Shown in pieces: positions 3,190-26,313 of a stretch of 29,214 bases of DNA. Within the stretch, counting starts at the first letter, position 1; every line of letters begins with the position of its first letter. Location: positions 1 through 29,214 of the forward strand of contig JAGPVK010000332.1 in NCBI GenBank assembly GCA_018067055.1, read 5' to 3'. This DNA comes from Sphingomonadales bacterium. Its GTDB lineage: Bacteria; Pseudomonadota; Alphaproteobacteria; Sphingomonadales; Sphingomonadaceae. The notes under the pieces are model-generated. The model made no database searches. It saw nothing but the letters and a program-made list of their open reading frames with translations, and was not told the origin of the DNA. Both the position numbers and the translations under genes were made by a program.

Positions 3190-5040
3190 ATGGAAATTGT
3201 AGATTCGCTAATGGTAAAGATTGCGCTGATTGGCCTGCTCGGCATCGGCGCGCAATGGATTGCCTGGCGGACCGGTCGTCCTGCCATTGCCCTGATGCTG
3301 ATTGTCGGCATCATCGCCGGCCCCATATTGGGCATTATCGACCCGGAACGCGATTTCGGAGCGCTGCAGGAACCGATCATCAAACTGGCCGTGGCGGTGA
3401 TCCTGTTTGAAGGTGGACTCAGCCTGAACTTTCGCGAACTCAGACAAGCGGGCGGTGCGGTGTCAGCGATGGTGCTGGTTGCCGGGCCGATTGCCTGGGG
3501 GCTTGGTACTGCAGCGGCGCATTATGGCGCCGGTCTGTCCTGGGAAATATCCGCCTTGCTCGGCGGCATCATGATCGTCACCGGTCCTACTGTGATCGGG
3601 CCAATGTTGCGCACATTGCGCGTGCCGTCGCGGGTCCGCAACATTTTGAAGTGGGAAGGCATTGTCAACGATCCGATCGGCGCGCTGCTTGCTGTCGGCA
3701 TCTATGCCTATATTACCTACGAAGGCGCCAATGCCAATATCGCCGTGATCAGCATGGATGTCCTGGCCGCCAGCTTCATTGCCGGATTGATCGGTGCCGG
3801 ACTCGGCTTTGCGGTCACCTGGCTGTTTCCCAGAGGATTGGTGCCGGAATATCTGAAGGCCCCGTTCCTGCTGGTGACGGTTATCGCCGGCTTTGTCATC
3901 GCCGACCTGATCAAGCATGAGACCGGATTGATCACCGTCACCGTGATGGGCATCGTCATGGCCAACCGGCAAATCTATTCGAGTCAGGCGCTCTACCGGT
4001 TCAAGGAAGATCTGGCGGTGCTGCTGATTTCCGGTGTGTTCATCATTCTTTCGGCAACGCTGGACTGGGAAACGGTGCAGCAATTCCGGCCACAGTTTGT
4101 CATTTTCCTGGTCTTGCTGCTGTTCGTCGTGCGTCCGATTTCGGTGCTGGTCGCCCTGCTGTTCAGTTCGGTGCCGTGGCGTGAACGCTTGTTTATCGCC
4201 TGGATCGCGCCGCGCGGTATCGTTGCGGTCGCAATCACCGGCCTGTTTGCGATTCGTCTGGTCGATTACGGAATGCCTGGTGCGGAAGCGCTTGTCCCGC
4301 TCAGCTTTGCCGTCGTCATCGCGACGATTTTCGCGCATGGCTTTTCCGCCTCATGGGTCGCCGAGCGACTGGGAATTTCGGAAGGCAAAGGCGAAGGCGT
4401 TCTGATCGCGGGTGCCAATCGCTGGTCGATCGCGCTGGGCAAAATGCTGAAATCGCTCGATATCGATGTGCTGATCACGGACAATAGCAAATTTGCCTTG
4501 CGCCGCGCCCACAGCGAAGGCCTTGCGATCCGCCACGGTGATGTGCTCGAGGAGGCCCATGACGACAATATCGATATGGGCGAATATCAGCATCTGATCG
4601 CTGCGACCGATAATGACAGCCAGAATCAGTTGATCACCGCCGATCTCGGTCCGGAAATGGGCTATGAACAAATCAGCCGGCTGGCCAACGACAGCCAGAG
4701 CAAGAGCCGGGTCGGCCATGGCCGGCTGCTATTCGAATCCGGTGCCGATTTCGGCACATTGCTTGACCGTGATCTGGCCGGCTGGCGATTCAGCAAGACC
4801 AATATCACCGAAAAATTCACCGCCGAAGATTATCGGAAGAATCTGGAAGAAGGTGAGGAACCGCTGGCCGTGTTCAAGCCGGATCGGCGGCTGCTATTCT
4901 TTGCCACCGACGCCCGGCCGGTGATCGAAGACGGCGATGTCGTGATCAGCTATGTCGCGCCCGATACGCCAGAGGAGCGCAAAGCCGACCGAGCGGCCAA
5001 AGACAGCGAAAAGAACGGGGAAAAGAAGGGCGAGAGATGA
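3190..5040 (+). CDS. CPA1-family Na+(K+)/H+ antiporter with C-terminal TrkA-N-like domain
   Basis: The 616-residue protein has a hydrophobic N-terminal part (about residues 5-395, roughly 11-12 membrane segments) of the monovalent cation:proton antiporter 1 family. The ion-binding ND motif is N160-D161 in EGIVNDPIG, preceded by GPTVIGPML (132-140). APRGIVAVAITG lies in a late helix. From about residue 400 a cytosolic Rossmann-like TrkA-N domain follows (VLIAGANRW, then an acidic residue in VLITDNS). The tail (about 590-616) is very rich in Lys, Glu and Arg. The expected role is sodium or potassium efflux and pH homeostasis in the inner membrane; ion specificity cannot be read from sequence. 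AAGGA seven bases before the ATG supports the start. It is convergent with the yggS-like gene with no spacer. Confidence 0.85.
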   Translation: MEIVDSLMVKIALIGLLGIGAQWIAWRTGRPAIALMLIVGIIAGPILGIIDPERDFGALQEPIIKLAVAVILFEGGLSLNFRELRQAGGAVSAMVLVAGPIAWGLGTAAAHYGAGLSWEISALLGGIMIVTGPTVIGPMLRTLRVPSRVRNILKWEGIVNDPIGALLAVGIYAYITYEGANANIAVISMDVLAASFIAGLIGAGLGFAVTWLFPRGLVPEYLKAPFLLVTVIAGFVIADLIKHETGLITVTVMGIVMANRQIYSSQALYRFKEDLAVLLISGVFIILSATLDWETVQQFRPQFVIFLVLLLFVVRPISVLVALLFSSVPWRERLFIAWIAPRGIVAVAITGLFAIRLVDYGMPGAEALVPLSFAVVIATIFAHGFSASWVAERLGISEGKGEGVLIAGANRWSIALGKMLKSLDIDVLITDNSKFALRRAHSEGLAIRHGDVLEEAHDDNIDMGEYQHLIAATDNDSQNQLITADLGPEMGYEQISRLANDSQSKSRVGHGRLLFESGADFGTLLDRDLAGWRFSKTNITEKFTAEDYRKNLEEGEEPLAVFKPDRRLLFFATDARPVIEDGDVVISYVAPDTPEERKADRAAKDSEKNGEKKGER

Positions 5041-5730
5041 TCAACCGGCTGGGGTGGCGCGGGGACCAAAGAGAGCCGTGCCGACCCGGACGTGGGTGGC
5101 ACCCAGCTTGATCGCCGTTTCAAAATCTCCCGACATTCCCATGCTGAGCCGATCAAGACCATGGTCACGGGCCAATTTGGCGAGCAAGGCGAAATAGGGC
5201 ACCGGATTGGTGTTTTCGGGGGGAACCGCCATCAGGCCGACAATCTCTATGCCGGATTGTCCCGCCAACGTGAGCAGGTCGGGAATGGCCGTGATATCGC
5301 AACCGCCTTTTTGGGACTCTTCGCCAATGTTGACCTGAAGAAAACAGGGAATATGGCGATCCTGCCGGTCCATTTCCCTGGCCAGCGCCTTGATCAGCGA
5401 AGGCCGGTCGAGCGAATGGATGCTGTCAAATAATGCCACCGCTTCTGCCGCCTTGTTCGATTGCAGCTGGCCGATCATGTGCAGTTGAATATCTGGATAT
5501 TCCGCCTGCAGGTCCGGCCATTTCGCCGCCGCTTCCTGCACCCGGTTTTCTCCAAACAGACGATGGCCAGCGACCAGCAACGGCCGGATTTCGTCGCTGC
5601 TGCGGGTTTTGGACACCGCGATCAGCGCGATATCGGATGACTTGCGATCCGCCAGCCTGGCGGCTTTTTCGATCTTGCCAATTATGTCTGTGAGTGCCGG
5701 GTTCGCCAAGTTTGAATCTCTCTCAATCAT
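5041..5730 (-). CDS. YggS/PROSC-family pyridoxal-phosphate homeostasis protein
   Basis: This 229-residue protein is a single-domain alanine-racemase-fold PLP carrier of the YggS/YlmE/PROSC family, cytoplasmic and thought to buffer free PLP and affect amino-acid pools rather than catalyse a known reaction. The PLP lysine is Lys41 in IALIAVSKTRS. The family hallmark FGENRVQEA is at 59-67, and the C-terminal phosphate-binding stretch SMGMSGDFETAI followed by VRVGTALFG is intact. Length and start fit the family. The stop codon directly abuts that of the convergent antiporter. A 35-bp gap separates its start from the divergent ThiE-like gene, so any promoters for the two genes overlap. Confidence 0.93.
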   Translation of the reverse strand: MIERDSNLANPALTDIIGKIEKAARLADRKSSDIALIAVSKTRSSDEIRPLLVAGHRLFGENRVQEAAAKWPDLQAEYPDIQLHMIGQLQSNKAAEAVALFDSIHSLDRPSLIKALAREMDRQDRHIPCFLQVNIGEESQKGGCDITAIPDLLTLAGQSGIEIVGLMAVPPENTNPVPYFALLAKLARDHGLDRLSMGMSGDFETAIKLGATHVRVGTALFGPRATPAG

Positions 5731-5765
5731 ATTCTTTCGCCAAGCTTGCGTCTATAGGCCTGCTT

Positions 5766-6341
5766 ATGTTGCGAGACCAGCCCTGCTCCCTGTTGCCGAA
5801 TCCCAAGAATTCGGCCCTGCCCCGGATATGGCTGTTCACCGACGAGCGGAATGAAGCGGTTCTGGAACAGGCGATTCTGCGACTGCCGCGCGGCAGCGGA
5901 ATAATCTTTCGTCACTATCATTTGCCGGAACCGGTGCGTCGGGCGCGGTTTGCAACGGTCAAGAAACTTGCCCGGCAACGCGGCCATATGCTGTTGCTGG
6001 CCGGATCGCCGGCATTGGCCAGGCGCTGGCGCGCTGACGGCGTCTACGGTCGCATGGCCCGACGCGCAGATATCGGCGGGCTGCTGCACAGCGTGCCGGT
6101 TCACGATGCGCAGGAAATTCAGCAAGCAAACCGGTCAGGCGCAGATATTTTTTTTCTGTCGCCGATCTTTGCCACCCGGTCCCATCCCGGACAGCGTCCG
6201 CTCAATCTTGTCCAGACCCGGCGGCTGGCCGCCTTGTGCAAGGGCGCAGTCATCTATCTGGGTGGAATGAATCGGCAACGCTATCGGAGGCGCAGAAATC
6301 CCATGACCCATGGCTGGGCGGCGATCGATGCTTTCTGCTAG
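5766..6341 (+). CDS. ThiE/TenI-like protein, probably without thiamine-phosphate synthase activity
   Basis: The 191-residue protein resembles the thiamine-phosphate synthase/TenI TIM-barrel superfamily. RIWLFTDERN is the first strand. ADGVYGR stands in place of ADGVHLGQ, and the stretch ending GADIFFLSPIFATRSHPG matches the GADYIGxGPVFPTxTKP segment of ThiE. A glycine pair (IYLGGMN) precedes the C-terminal phosphate-binding region. The QLREK motif that binds the pyrimidine substrate reads GIIFRHYHL here, and the Asn-Asp pair before ADGVH is replaced by LLLAGSP. The ATG at 5766 is preferred because an upstream in-frame GTG at 5694 would run 37 bp into yggS and add residues unlike the family. 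It is divergent from yggS and convergent with the exported protein at 6351. The family call is moderately sure; the loss of function is inference. Confidence 0.7.
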   Translation: MLRDQPCSLLPNPKNSALPRIWLFTDERNEAVLEQAILRLPRGSGIIFRHYHLPEPVRRARFATVKKLARQRGHMLLLAGSPALARRWRADGVYGRMARRADIGGLLHSVPVHDAQEIQQANRSGADIFFLSPIFATRSHPGQRPLNLVQTRRLAALCKGAVIYLGGMNRQRYRRRRNPMTHGWAAIDAFC

Positions 6342-6350
6342 TCGTGCGGC

Positions 6351-7094
6351 TTAGAAGCGGAACTGGGTTCCGACATAGACTGCCTGGCTGTCCTGACGAT
6401 TGTCGGTCAGTGGTGCCATCCGGTCGCGTTCATTGTTGATCCGGACACCAGCGGTCACGTCCAGATTGCGGGTGAGCGAATAGCTGCCGCCCACATCAAG
6501 CGTATAATCTTTCTGGCTGGCATCCAGTGCCCGCGGCGCAGCATTGATCGGTGCACTGGCATCAATCGACATGCGGGTATTGAAACGGCTCTTCTTGCCC
6601 GAATCCTGATCGCCCATCAGTCTTTCAGCGCCGATTTCCGAAAGGTCAGGAAGATTGCTGCCCAGCTTCTTGACCGGGATGGCAAAGCTCTTCAGCCCTT
6701 TTGCGGACCCCAGGCTATAAGAAACAGGGGCGATTTTCGCTGCACTGATCATGCCCGAACCGGGCGCGGCAGCGAGAATATTTTCGCGGATGGATACGGC
6801 ACCGGCATCAGACTTCTGACGAACCACGACGGTAACCGAGCGTTCTCCGTCACGCGTGCCGCCGGATGGTGTGAATTTGAAGCTCGCATTTCCACGCAAG
6901 GAACTGAGATTATATTTGGCGACAAGTTCGGGATCCGCACCCGCTACCGTGAAAGAGCCAATCGATCCCAGGGATTTCAGGGATACGATCCCGTCATTGC
7001 TGGAAAGCACTTTCGCCAGAGCAGGGGTCATGGCAAGCCCGGAGATCGCGAGTCCCGTCGCTAACCAACCGAAATGAATGACCTTTTTCGTCAT
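6351..7094 (-). CDS. Exported protein with outer-membrane-type C-terminus, function unknown
   Basis: I do not recognise a named family. From the ATG at 7094 the product is 247 residues, with a clear Sec signal peptide (MTKK, a hydrophobic core, cleavage near MTPALA-K at about residue 27). That start is chosen because the 17 codons further upstream destroy the signal peptide and an AGGGGAAG sequence lies upstream of 7094. The mature part is rich in Ser, Gly, Ala and Lys. The last 55 residues alternate polar and hydrophobic residues (YTLDVGGSYSLTRN, VTAGVRINNE) and end YVGTQFRF. A terminal Phe with aromatic or hydrophobic residues at alternate positions is the BAM-recognition signature of outer-membrane beta-barrels. 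The protein is short for a complete barrel, so a small barrel or a surface-associated beta protein are both possible. Confidence 0.65.
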   Translation of the reverse strand: MTKKVIHFGWLATGLAISGLAMTPALAKVLSSNDGIVSLKSLGSIGSFTVAGADPELVAKYNLSSLRGNASFKFTPSGGTRDGERSVTVVVRQKSDAGAVSIRENILAAAPGSGMISAAKIAPVSYSLGSAKGLKSFAIPVKKLGSNLPDLSEIGAERLMGDQDSGKKSRFNTRMSIDASAPINAAPRALDASQKDYTLDVGGSYSLTRNLDVTAGVRINNERDRMAPLTDNRQDSQAVYVGTQFRF

Positions 7095-23538: not shown

Positions 23539-24140
23539 GACGGCAAAATAGACCGGATGCGGAGATAGTCCAGCAAATGCAGGAGCGGCAGCCCCATGAT
23601 CGTGAACTGGCTGCCGGCGATGGCGGAGAATAGCTGAGCGCCCCTGCCCTCGATTTCGTAGCAGCCAACGCAGTGACGGATATTGTCCCATTCCGATTCG
23701 ACATATTGCTCGATGAATGAATCGCTGAGCATGCGGACGGAGAGCGTCGCAACGTCAATATGCCGCCACACCGCGATCCCCTGTTCAGCAATGACCGCTG
23801 CGCTGAACAGCTTGTGCTTTCTGCCCGACAGCAATTTCAGATGTGCGATCGCCTCGGCGGGATCGGCCGGCTTGTCGAGCATCATGCCATCCTCCAGCGC
23901 CAGCACCTGATCGGCACCCAATATCAGCCCGGCTCCGATTCTTTGCGACAGCCGGACCGCCTTGGCCTCGGCCAGCGTATCAGCGAGATTGCGCGCGGTC
24001 ACGCCTTCGCTCTTCAACCCGTCCTTGAGCGCATCTTCGTCGACATTGGGCGCGATTGCCTCGACGGCAACGCCGGTCGCGGTCAGCATGGCCAGCCGCG
24101 CCTTGCTTTTGGAAGCCAGTATCAGGCGTGCGTCATTCAT
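23535..24140 (-). CDS. Maf/YceF-type nucleotide pyrophosphatase
   Basis: Maf proteins are cytoplasmic house-cleaning pyrophosphatases that hydrolyse non-canonical or modified nucleoside triphosphates. From the ATG at 24140 the product is 201 residues. The N-terminal signature reads LASKSKARLAML (8-19) and the central catalytic segment is LILGADQVL (72-80) with Asp77. The DQV (rather than DTV) motif resembles the YceF branch, which prefers 7-methyl-GTP in Escherichia coli, and so does the C-terminal GLPLLHLLDYLR. KPADPAEAIAHLKLLSG is the normal KP(x)n segment. The start overlaps the ppsR stop by 8 bp; the longer frame to 24185 lies in ppsR. Substrate is inferred from motif only. Confidence 0.9.
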   Translation of the reverse strand: MNDARLILASKSKARLAMLTATGVAVEAIAPNVDEDALKDGLKSEGVTARNLADTLAEAKAVRLSQRIGAGLILGADQVLALEDGMMLDKPADPAEAIAHLKLLSGRKHKLFSAAVIAEQGIAVWRHIDVATLSVRMLSDSFIEQYVESEWDNIRHCVGCYEIEGRGAQLFSAIAGSQFTIMGLPLLHLLDYLRIRSILPS

Positions 24141-24978
24141 CGCCAATGACCCTGTGCATATCGCCGGATCCGACATGGCGTTCATTATAGAGATTGATGA
24201 TCGCCGCTGCCGATTCCTCGATCGAACGCCGGGTCACATCTATCATCGGCCAGCCGTTATCGGCGAACATGCGGCGGGCATATTGGGTCTCTTCCTTGAC
24301 CTTTTCTTCATTGACATAATCGGTTTCCGGCGCCTGATTCAGCGACAGCAAACGGTTGCGCCGGACCTGCACCAGCCGAGAGGCACCGGTGATCAGGCCG
24401 ACGACCAGCGGATTTTTCAGATGGTAGAGCGAATCGGGCGGCGGCGATTCCGGCACGATCGGAATATTGGCGGTCTTGTAGCCGCGGTTGGCGAGATAGA
24501 TCGACGTTGGTGTTTTCGAGGTTCGCGACACACCGGCCAGCACGATATCGGCTTCTTCCCAATTTTCCCAGCCAACCCCGTCATCATGGGCAATAGTGAA
24601 CTGAATCGCCTCGACCCGGGCGAAATAGGCCGCATCCAGGATATGCTGGCGGCCTGGCCGGGCCTTGGCTTCCTGACCCAGCATGTTCGACAGGGCATCG
24701 GTCACGGTATCAAGCGCCGGCACCGACGGCAGCCCCAGATGCCGGCATTCGCGCTCGAGTTTTGCTCTGATATCACGGTTGACGATGGTGAAGATAACCA
24801 GACCGGGATTATCCGCGACTTCGGTCAGGATTCGGTTGAGATGCTTTTCCGAGCGGACCATAGGCCAGAAATGCTTGATGATCTCGACCCCGTCAAACTG
24901 GGCAAGCGCGGCCTTGGCGATGTTTTCCAGGGTCTCGCCGGTTGAGTCCGAGAGCAGATGAAGATGGAGCCGGTTCAT
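24133..24978 (-). CDS. ppsR: Pyruvate,phosphate/water dikinase regulatory protein (DUF299)
   Basis: This bifunctional kinase/pyrophosphorylase of the PSRP family switches phosphoenolpyruvate synthase or pyruvate phosphate dikinase off and on by ADP-dependent threonine phosphorylation and Pi-dependent dephosphorylation. The 281-residue protein opens with LHLLSDSTGETLENI and has the P-loop-like GVSRTSKTPTS at 149-159, followed by YLANRGYKTANIPIVPE and GLITGASRLVQVRRNRL. The target dikinase is not in the window. Its homologue is the gene next to hemE at the Caulobacter and Rickettsia origins, from memory of published work. It is divergent from hemE across the putative origin and is the first gene of the leftward run. 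Confidence 0.93.
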   Translation of the reverse strand: MNRLHLHLLSDSTGETLENIAKAALAQFDGVEIIKHFWPMVRSEKHLNRILTEVADNPGLVIFTIVNRDIRAKLERECRHLGLPSVPALDTVTDALSNMLGQEAKARPGRQHILDAAYFARVEAIQFTIAHDDGVGWENWEEADIVLAGVSRTSKTPTSIYLANRGYKTANIPIVPESPPPDSLYHLKNPLVVGLITGASRLVQVRRNRLLSLNQAPETDYVNEEKVKEETQYARRMFADNGWPMIDVTRRSIEESAAAIINLYNERHVGSGDMHRVIGDE

Positions 24979-25024
24979 CCGCTAAGCTTTGTGATTTCAC
25001 AGGGGATAAAGCAAGGGATGAAAA

Positions 25025-25033
25025 TGTGGATAA
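25025..25033 (-). promoter_or_regulatory. DnaA box 1 (perfect)
   Basis: TGTGGATAA on the plus strand equals TTATCCACA on the minus strand, a perfect match to the TTATNCACA DnaA consensus. Confidence 0.85.
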
Positions 25034-25069
25034 GTAGTCCCGTCACATTCTTCCCCGATTCCGGCAAAT

Positions 25070-25078
25070 CCATCCACA
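25070..25078 (+). promoter_or_regulatory. DnaA box-like site (7/9)
   Basis: CCATCCACA keeps the ATCCACA core of the DnaA consensus and differs at the first two bases. It may be a lower-affinity box. Confidence 0.5.
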
Positions 25079-25099
25079 GCGGGCCAACATTGACAGATT

Positions 25100-25120
25100 C
25101 AATCCACAGACTGTGGATAA
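25100..25120. promoter_or_regulatory. Inverted pair of DnaA boxes
   Basis: A near-match CAATCCACA (25100-25108, plus strand) faces a perfect box TGTGGATAA (25112-25120, minus strand). Together they form a perfect 8-bp inverted repeat, ATCCACAG and CTGTGGAT, around a single A at 25110, an arrangement that could load DnaA molecules head to head. Confidence 0.75.
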
Positions 25121-25143
25121 TGGGGATGAAATTTCGGAATCGG

Positions 25144-25158
25144 TTAAATTTGCGTTAA
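25144..25158 (+). promoter_or_regulatory. CtrA-type binding site (TTAA-N7-TTAA) in the origin
   Basis: TTAA at 25144-25147 and TTAA at 25155-25158 are separated by exactly seven bases, and the second half reads TTAAC. This is the full consensus of the alphaproteobacterial cell-cycle regulator CtrA. It lies 23 bp from the last perfect DnaA box. Binding is inferred. Confidence 0.65.
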
Positions 25159-25220
25159 CCGCCATCTGTCAATCTGTTTGTATTTGCGACGCTGGCGGGT
25201 TACCGCCTTTTCCACGCTCT

Positions 25221-25260
25221 ATCATCAACAACAATTTAAAATATATACTAATATAATATA
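25221..25260. other. AT-rich tract, probable DNA-unwinding element
   Basis: 35 of 40 bases are A or T and the plus strand has no G. It ends at the base before the hemE ATG and lies about 100 bp from the DnaA boxes. It contains TATAAT at 25252-25257. Confidence 0.65.
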
Positions 25261-26313
25261 ATGGATGACCATCTCTTTATGCCGAATGGAATCGATTCAC
25301 AGAAAATTTTGCTGCAGACATTGCTTGGCAGAAAGACCGAACGGACTCCCGTCTGGCTGATGCGCCAAGCAGGCCGCTATTTGCCGGAATATCGGGAATT
25401 ACGCGCGCAAAAAGGCGGGTTTCTTGAACTCTGCTATGATGCCGAGGCTGCGGCGGAAGTCACATTGCAACCGATCAAGCGATTTGCTTTTGACGGGGCG
25501 ATCCTGTTTTCCGACATTTTGATCGTGCCCCATGCGATGGGTCAGAAGCTCTGGTTTGAAGCAGGAGAAGGACCCCGTCTGGCACCAAGGTTGCTGGATG
25601 CGTCTTTGGCCTCTCTAGAGGGCGCTCCTGAGCATTTTGAAGCCATATATGCAACGGTTCGTGCCGTTGCCGCACAGCTCGACGATAAAACGACCTTCAT
25701 GGGCTTTGCCGGAAGTCCGTGGACGATCGCGACTTATATGGTCAACGGGCAGGGCAGCAAGGACCAGGCAGCGACGCGCCGTTTTGCCTATCGGGATGAA
25801 GCTGCTTTTTCCGAACTGATCAACGCGATCGTTGAGAATACGGTCACCTATCTGCTTGGCCAGATCGAAGCCGGCGTCGATGCCGTGCAATTGTTTGACA
25901 GCTGGGCTGGATCTTTGTCTCCGGTGCAATTTGAAAAATGGGTGATTGCGCCCAATGCGGAAATCATTGCGCGGTTGAAAGCGGTTCATCCCGATCTGCC
26001 GATCATCGGCTTTCCAAAAGGTGCGGGTGCCAAGTTGATCGCTTATGCGAACGAGACCGGCGCCAGTGCCATCGGTCTCGATGAAACGGTTGATCCGGTC
26101 TGGGCCGATAAATATTTGCCGGCCGGACTGCCGGTGCAAGGCAATCTTGATCCGCTGGCCCTGATCGCTGGCGGCGAAGCTCTGGAAACTTCGGTGCGCC
26201 ATATTCTGGACGTTTTCCAAGACCGGCCGCATATTTTCAATCTGGGTCACGGGATTTTGCCCGACACGCCCATTGAACATGTCGAAAAGCTGCTTACACT
26301 AGTCAGGCAATGA
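25261..26313 (+). CDS. hemE: Uroporphyrinogen decarboxylase
   Basis: HemE decarboxylates the four acetate side chains of uroporphyrinogen III to give coproporphyrinogen III in heme synthesis. The 350-residue protein has the signature VWLMRQAGRYLPEYR (31-45) with Arg35 and Arg39 binding substrate carboxylates. Asp85 in ILFSDILIVP is the catalytic residue. GFAGSPWTIATYMV, QLFDSWAGSLSP and FNLGHGILPDTP complete the active-site motifs. No Shine-Dalgarno precedes the ATG at 25261, which directly follows the AT-rich origin tract; the in-frame ATG at 25279 (residue 7) is an alternative. It overlaps hemJ by ATGA. Confidence 0.96.
   Translation: MDDHLFMPNGIDSQKILLQTLLGRKTERTPVWLMRQAGRYLPEYRELRAQKGGFLELCYDAEAAAEVTLQPIKRFAFDGAILFSDILIVPHAMGQKLWFEAGEGPRLAPRLLDASLASLEGAPEHFEAIYATVRAVAAQLDDKTTFMGFAGSPWTIATYMVNGQGSKDQAATRRFAYRDEAAFSELINAIVENTVTYLLGQIEAGVDAVQLFDSWAGSLSPVQFEKWVIAPNAEIIARLKAVHPDLPIIGFPKGAGAKLIAYANETGASAIGLDETVDPVWADKYLPAGLPVQGNLDPLALIAGGEALETSVRHILDVFQDRPHIFNLGHGILPDTPIEHVEKLLTLVRQ

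Follow-up and report, generated by a model that had tools for sequence, protein, structure and literature searches.

The ppsR–hemE intergenic region

The window, by which we mean the whole stretch of 29,214 nucleotides analysed here, lies on contig C292 of a 2.70-Mb sphingomonad MAG of 487 contigs that is 80% complete. At positions 24979-25260 it holds a gap of 282 bp that separates two divergent genes. To the left lies ppsR (24133..24978, minus strand; DUF299/Kinase-PPPase, COG1806), matched by PF03618 with an E-value of 2.5e-93 and by NF003742 above its cut-off, and to the right lies hemE (25261..26313, plus strand), matched by TIGR01464 above cut-off with an E-value of 5.2e-119. A hemJ-type gene and rho follow hemE in the window, and maf, aroE, coaE and dnaQ stand on the ppsR side. 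The gap reaches 57.4% A+T, compared with 42.4% for the whole window. An earlier note on this DNA had placed a probable replication origin here and had pointed to the hemE/COG1806 origin location reported for Caulobacter and Rickettsia (PMC1914354); the profile matches bear out this gene pair.

The ATG of hemE at 25261 comes directly after an A+T-rich tract, and a Shine-Dalgarno sequence is not visible before it (25235-25261). From the sequence, hemE may be leaderless, or its true start may be a later ATG. For many relatives the hemE alignment starts 12-16 residues further in.

Two sets of loci served for comparison. The ppsR-search set comprises the best 80 of 284 confirmed loci from a protein search with ppsR in named genomes, the window included, and is biased toward close relatives because the best-scoring loci were taken. 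The class/order set comprises 94 stretches from genomes with a PF03618 match, 40 from the 81 such class genomes and 54 from the 59 such order genomes, leaving out the window's own genome, G008 and G015 (already in) as well as G018 and G048 (ppsR at a contig end). Divergent ppsR and hemE were found in 79 of the 80 loci, L062 having no hemE match on its locus, and in 92 of the 94 stretches, the other two having no hemE match on the stretch. The 80 gaps of the first set and 92 of the second make up the 172 gaps compared below. A PF03618 match was absent from 34 of the 115 class genomes searched, and the boundary pair is therefore not universal. The gaps of L024 and L061 are longer (980 and 529 bp as cut), which suggests insertions next to a conserved origin core.

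The aligned gaps of the window and its relatives L001-L021 contain a series of near-invariant islands. Running from ppsR to hemE, the window's gap shows GGATAAAGCAAGGGATGAA, TCCACAG, and an inverted box pair around a central TGTGGATAA with an abutting TGGGGA; it continues with GAATC, GTCAATCTGTTTGTA, TTTTCCACG, CATCAACAACAA and the A+T tract. A wider alignment shows the central box, the right box, GAMTC, GTCAANNTGTTGGCA and the triplets to be kept in many of the rows listed. The block GGATAAAGCAAGGGATGAA adjoining ppsR (25004..25022, plus strand) is invariant in the window and L001-L021; it lies outside both genes and makes a poor DnaA box.

DnaA boxes and the CtrA-type site

The perfect DnaA box TTATCCACA occurs twice in the gap, at 25025-25033 and 25112-25120, both on the minus strand, and this pair, already noticed in the earlier note, is the only one in the window. 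The whole MAG holds nine such boxes, the remaining seven being found on seven other contigs. Several near-perfect boxes had also been announced: six additional boxes are present at two mismatches, but none at exactly one, for a total of eight at no more than two mismatches. Across 201 other half-overlapping segments of 282 bp the mean is 0.45 boxes at this threshold and the maximum 4, and when the gap is shuffled by mononucleotides 1000 times, eight is never reached. The clustering thus exceeds chance.

The left cluster begins with the weak box TTATCCCCT (25001..25009, minus strand, two mismatches), followed by the first perfect box (25025..25033), which the alignment shows to be variable in relatives. 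Next come the box-like CCATCCACA (25070..25078, plus strand), whose core TCCACAG is conserved in the window and L001-L021, and CAATCCACA (25100..25108, plus strand), the inverted partner of the central box. The central box itself (25112..25120) is the best conserved of the cluster and is abutted by the weak box TCATCCCCA (25121..25129, minus strand), seen both in the box scan and in the column profile. A layout with boxes on the ppsR side therefore holds for this cluster, but it had overlooked TTTTCCACG on the hemE side (25208..25216, plus strand), recovered by box scan and alignment. This last box has the CtrA-type site on one side and the A+T tract on the other and points at the latter, with TATCATCAACAACAA beginning 3 bp further on; a DnaA box thus faces the probable unwinding tract, as in the basal unwinding system (BUS) made of a DnaA box plus DnaA-trios. 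DnaA boxes are retained in the orthologous gap of close relatives; perfect ones number between 0 and 2 per locus, with 7 of 22 loci (window and L001-L021) having none.

An exact CtrA-type site, TTAAN7TTAA, lies in the middle of the gap (25144..25158), as had been described, but it is kept in place only among close relatives. The whole MAG holds eight such palindromes. In the window and L001-L021 the site is exact in 8 of 22 loci and within one mismatch in 19. Exact sites occur in 9 of the 80 ppsR-search gaps, eight of them at the aligned position and all in close relatives, the ninth elsewhere in the gap of L052; in the class/order set they occur in 8 of 92 gaps, at scattered distances from hemE. 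We rejected CtrA as an order-wide origin regulator, the exact aligned sites being confined to those eight gaps. A local CtrA input in the clade of the window is plausible from the sequence, and for Sphingomonas melonis an influence of CtrA on replication is reported (cited in PMC8116508). The gap of G056, a genome of the same family (L193), carries two overlapping exact TTAAN7TTAA sites together with CTACTACTT triplets, and its DnaA scores like those of other families.

The anchor, a putative weak box

Between the CtrA-type site and the right box lies GTCAATCTGTTTGTAT (25168..25183, minus strand), which we used as an anchor and whose right part we interpret as a weak DnaA box that has become frozen. 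Its pattern, GTCA[AT]NNTGT, is found in 82 of the 172 gaps: 73 of the 80 ppsR-search gaps and, within the class/order set, 9 of the 15 from the window's own family and 0 of the 77 from other families. The 90 gaps that lack it include seven of the ppsR-search set, six of which are from Novosphingobium, and six of the own-family class/order gaps.

In 23 of the 77 other-family gaps, a minus-oriented, consensus-like DnaA box is found 100-160 bp ahead of the hemE alignment, as against 0 to 9 of 77 for the other 60-bp bins tried, and the anchor slot of L022-L024 holds TGTGGATAA or TGTGGACAA. Since consensus-like boxes occupy a similar place in other families and in these three loci, the anchor looks like a former consensus DnaA box that drifted and then became fixed, and it may still bind DnaA.

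An IHF site had been our leading idea for the conserved GTCAANNTGTTGGCA and was dropped, since the G that is conserved ahead of TCAA does not fit the IHF consensus. The best match in the gap has two mismatches to the alternative form of the consensus, WATCARNNNNTTR, or to WATCAN5WTR, and a match with fewer than two is absent from the gap. With boxes of other families at that place and no good IHF match, a derived DnaA box fits GTCAANNTGTTGGCA better. WATCAN5WTR is the consensus given in PMC1914354, where an IHF site figures as one Caulobacter-based criterion for oriC and not as a rule on its location. The anchor pattern GTCAANNTGTTKGYA was also tried as an order-wide genome marker and abandoned: it matches in 77 of 246 order genomes, in some clearly elsewhere, as in G028, where the match lies at 2.209 Mb and ppsR at 1.307 Mb.

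A GA[A/C]TC site at fixed distance

The GAATC at 25137..25141 is a GANTC (CcrM-type) site. Relatives that have the site show GAATC or GACTC at the equivalent position, GA[A/C]TC being a subset of the CcrM motif. GANTC starts 29-31 bp before the anchor in 79 of the 82 anchored loci (the exceptions are L022, L023 and L024), for a background expectation of 0.025 per locus at this spacing, and in 46 of 48 loci after dereplication by spacer. In the column profile of these 46 loci, which were selected for GANTC, most flanking columns within ten bases lie between 0.35 and 0.57, the base just before the site reaching 0.70. The N base is A or C at all 79 anchored sites, in contrast to the GANTC found elsewhere in the same gaps, of which 161 of 220 are GATTC or GAGTC. 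As a methyltransferase reads GANTC symmetrically, an N base fixed with respect to the strand implies an asymmetric reader. No description of this fixed site was found in the literature searched, supplementary files being outside that search.

We see a somewhat less than even chance that the reader is some other asymmetric protein, or DnaA itself with GAMTC as a part of the box array, and that the overlap with GANTC is incidental. Such a reader would account for the strand-fixed N base and for the near-fixed distance from GAMTC to both the central box and the weak box. On the other hand, we know of no DnaA site that resembles GAMTC.

A true CcrM/GcrA control site, tying initiation to the methylation state of oriC, is possible, but we would sooner bet against it. 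The fixed distance amid mostly unconserved flanks speaks for it, and GAKTC, the other strand of GAMTC, agrees with the core of the GcrA preference YGAKTCG, as quoted in PMC7987155. A RAMA-domain (CcrM-type) protein was matched in the window's own MAG and in the relatives G001 and G008, the latter two also giving a GcrA profile match, and GANTC is reported as methylated in Sphingomonas sp. AAP5 (PMC8067484). Further afield, the RepC-dependent ori2 of Agrobacterium is described as influenced by GANTC motifs (PMC11514494).

Several observations weigh against this control site. The full YGAKTCG is present at only 18 of the 79 sites and YGAKTCK at 23, the window's own GGAATCG fitting neither, and this poor fit of the flanks also favours a different binding protein. 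For Brevundimonas, the GcrA is reported to show no extended preference of this kind (PMC7987155). A plain methylation site would be indifferent to the N base, and the anchor from which the distance is measured is missing from 90 of the 172 gaps. A GcrA match is absent from the window's own 80%-complete MAG, and the GcrA profile also matched in Sulfolobus. In Caulobacter, CcrM is reported as not required for the control of initiation (PMC3973325).

The A+T tract, the triplet repeat and DnaA

The richest 40-mer in A+T, from 25220 or 25221 onward, counts 35 of 40, a value that the earlier note had given and that is reached nowhere else in the window. The A+T scan delimits a probable unwinding element at 25235..25260, which ends directly before the hemE start and so touches hemE, as had been proposed.

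Between the right box and this tract runs the triplet repeat TAT-CAT-CAA-CAA-CAA (25220..25234, plus strand), which resembles a DnaA-trio. Within the last 120 bp of the gap, runs of at least three C[AT][AT] triplets occur on the box strand in 52 of the 80 ppsR-search gaps, as opposed to 2 of 80 on the other strand and 4.1 after shuffling; the class/order gaps give 38 of 92, 4 and 2.8, respectively. A trinucleotide repeat between box and A+T tract is thus found beyond chance expectation. CA-type triplets make up 145 of the 184 in such runs in the ppsR-search set and 70 of 137 in the class/order set. Some examples from several other families show a box and then, on the same strand, CTACTACTA-type triplets, equivalent to 3'-GATGATGAT-5' on the complement, where they read as the published DnaA-trio 3'-GAT-5'.

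Trios are taken to lie on the strand complementary to TTATCCACA. With this polarity, the strict rule, which asks for three or more 3'-NAN-5' trios no further than 16 bp from a box, finds no match in the window, where the longest run is 2; the opposite polarity gives a run of 5. A box-anchored version of the test on 161 gaps returned NAN runs of at least four in 46 gaps (24.3 when shuffled) and NTN runs in 32 (19.8), a moderate excess only. We set it aside, the automatic choice of the right box having often taken the repeat itself, and replaced it by the box-free count given above.

The residue of DnaA that would face the middle base of a trio differs as well. In B. subtilis, Asn187 is described as contacting the amino group of the middle adenine, for which T is a poor substitute (PMC10721633). 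In the DnaA of the window's genome, Ile aligns with Asn187 of the B. subtilis structure (PDB 8btg). From the 90 loci that have a run of three or more triplets we examined 64 DnaAs that are not phylogenetically independent (all 38 of the class/order set and 26 of 52 of the ppsR-search set), and position 187 was F in 24, Y in 16, I in 8, M in 7, V in 5, N in 3 and L in 1. In all three cases with Asn187 at least two of three triplets are CT-type, two of the three having identical motifs. Seven of the eight Ile187 cases are without CT-type triplets, those seven being close relatives and L022 the exception. These pairings are suggestive of a coupling between residue 187 and the type of triplet, and we offer them as a lead.

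Against TIGR00362, the DnaAs of the window's family and of the ppsR-search genomes score 461-500 bits and those of other families 524-578 bits, the own-family G056 reaching 556. The genome of L059 (G375) has a second strong DnaA match (C51:7807-9144), at 470 bits beside 472 for the first; the genome may have a second dnaA, or the MAG may contain mixed DNA.

Could the repeat be a DnaA-trio whose middle base has changed, with DnaA altered to match at the equivalent of Asn187? We consider this doubtful. The strong strand bias of the C[AT][AT] runs, the box followed by same-strand triplets in other families, the Ile at position 187 and the CT-type triplets accompanying Asn187 all point in this direction, and deviant trios without a middle adenine are foreseen in PMC8287927. 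Yet the strict NAN rule finds nothing in the window, a middle T serves B. subtilis DnaA poorly, the F and Y DnaAs (40 of 64) occur with every mixture of triplets, and the Ile and Asn cases are weakened by close kinship, by L022 and by identical motifs.

GC skew, dnaA and parS

GC skew was measured in four relatives (G001, G002, G003 and G008) because the window's own MAG is fragmented and incomplete. In G001, the genome of L005, where 40 stretches of 20 kb were sampled, the skew passes from -0.036 (2.58-2.60 Mb) to +0.012 (2.60-2.62 Mb) at the gap, located at about 2.598 Mb, and is mostly negative before it and positive after it. The values across the gap are -0.068 and +0.027 in G002 and -0.109 and +0.092 in G003. 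The skew flip that the earlier note had proposed to look for is therefore seen at the gap in these three relatives, but in G008 it falls near 2.16 Mb, displaced from the gap (2.209 Mb) by about 49 kb in the direction of hemE, perhaps through a local rearrangement (C1:2160000-2209000). Some stretches are off trend, at 0.09 and 1.98 Mb in G001 and at 1.50 and 1.72 Mb in G003. In the window itself, 1-kb bins are negative in 6 of 6 cases over 18-24 kb and positive in 5 of 5 over 24-29 kb; over 2-15 kb, 12 of 13 are positive.

That note had also named dnaA as a place where the skew minimum might lie instead. No flip was seen at dnaA in G001, G003 and G008, the relatives whose dnaA surroundings were sampled. 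The gene is away from the gap in all four genomes: 0.51 Mb in G001 (dnaA at 3.105 Mb), 0.24 Mb in G003, on another contig in G002, and at the start of the record in the single-contig G008 (C1:167-1489). In the window's own MAG, a perfect DnaA box (C463:10433-10441) precedes the start of the dnaA match (10875) by 442 bp, which makes autoregulation possible.

Sites of parS type accompany the gap on its hemE side, at about 10 kb in G001 and G002 and at 7-21 kb in G003; with a looser pattern and in the sampled stretches, they lie at 6-9 kb in G008. In the window's own MAG such sites are found on contigs C85 and C144. On the former (4456-6914), the parS pattern at two places and one TTAAN7TTAA fall within 2.5 kb.

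The gap as a very probable chromosomal origin

We conclude with high confidence that this sphingomonad has its chromosomal oriC in the gap and that the origin belongs to the alphaproteobacterial hemE/COG1806 type. What can be observed directly converges on this conclusion: a position between divergent ppsR and hemE in a kept gene neighbourhood, an enrichment in DnaA boxes and A+T, the skew flip of three of four relatives, nearby parS, conserved spacings and a strand-specific triplet repeat. Against it stand the skew of G008, the off-trend stretches of G001 and G003, the positive bins over 2-15 kb of the window, the class genomes without PF03618 and the seven loci without a perfect box.

That the gap is a mere divergent promoter of ppsR and hemE, its boxes regulating hemE and replication starting elsewhere, for instance at dnaA, is very improbable, for although TGTTGGCA within the anchor of many relatives can be read by eye as a hemE -35 element and a perfect box precedes the dnaA of the MAG, that dnaA contig carries this one perfect box and no cluster, the skew of the three relatives sampled there passes dnaA without a flip, parS lies on the hemE side, and dnaA is described as not conserved near ori in Sphingomonadales (PMC8116508).

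As an origin, the gap could work as follows. DnaA would bind the central box and its neighbours, and the array of strong and weak boxes, to which the putative frozen box at 25168-25183 belongs, would bring it to the hemE-side box at 25208-25216. From there DnaA would extend over the CAT/CAA triplets on one of the two strands, opening the adjacent A+T tract. We infer this loading and unwinding from the arrangement of the sites, and a role of CcrM, GcrA or CtrA in firing would be just as conjectural.

Going further, one may picture in many Sphingomonadaceae an oriC whose GA[A/C]TC is a methylation-readable switch, placed with constant helical spacing between two DnaA boxes, one conserved and the other weak and frozen, and coupling firing to CcrM/GcrA as a counterpart of Dam/SeqA, with, in the lineage of the window, a rewritten trio code that has T for A in the middle and a changed contact residue in DnaA. 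As a whole, this picture is speculative and in our view unlikely.

Relation to known origins

The location of the origin is already known for Sphingomonadaceae and agrees with what databases assume. The statement in the earlier note that the origin of many sphingomonad genomes is assigned only by skew or by dnaA was overstated, as DoriC places oriC near hemE for most Sphingomonadaceae (PMC4741004). To our knowledge, and within the literature searched, the apparently new elements are the GAMTC module, the putative frozen weak box and the CA-type triplets accompanied by a changed DnaA contact residue. The location has practical relevance, since the single-contig record of G008 starts at dnaA, 2.2 Mb along from its hemE gap. 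Should GAMTC take part in initiation, sphingomonads would supply a case of methylation-linked control at an alphaproteobacterial origin that depends on DnaA, in contrast to Caulobacter, where CcrM was tested and reported as not required (PMC3973325). If CAT and CAA work as trios, nature would have provided an experiment on the reading of single-stranded origin DNA by DnaA, and the contact between Asn187 and adenine could be tested directly.

Three published systems invite comparison. With the Cori of Caulobacter crescentus, as described in PMC1914354, the gap shares the boundary genes, DnaA boxes, an A+T-rich tract of about 40 bp and a CtrA-type site. It differs by having one CtrA-type site where Cori has five, and by the absence of an IHF consensus at fewer than two mismatches; the module from GAMTC to the weak box is a feature of this gap, the comparison with Cori covering its published features. 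The oriC of Sphingopyxis granuli TFA and of other Sphingomonadaceae near hemE is alike in location, DnaA boxes and a predicted DUE (PMC4741004, DoriC), and the relevant text of PMC4741004 speaks of boxes and DUE only. Like the BUS of B. subtilis (PMC8287927, PMC6669920, PMC10721633), the gap directs a DnaA box toward an A+T tract with a trinucleotide repeat between them. Unlike the BUS, it has CAT/CAA on the box strand, so that T and not A stands in the middle of the complementary trio, and its DnaA carries Ile at position 187 where that of B. subtilis carries Asn.
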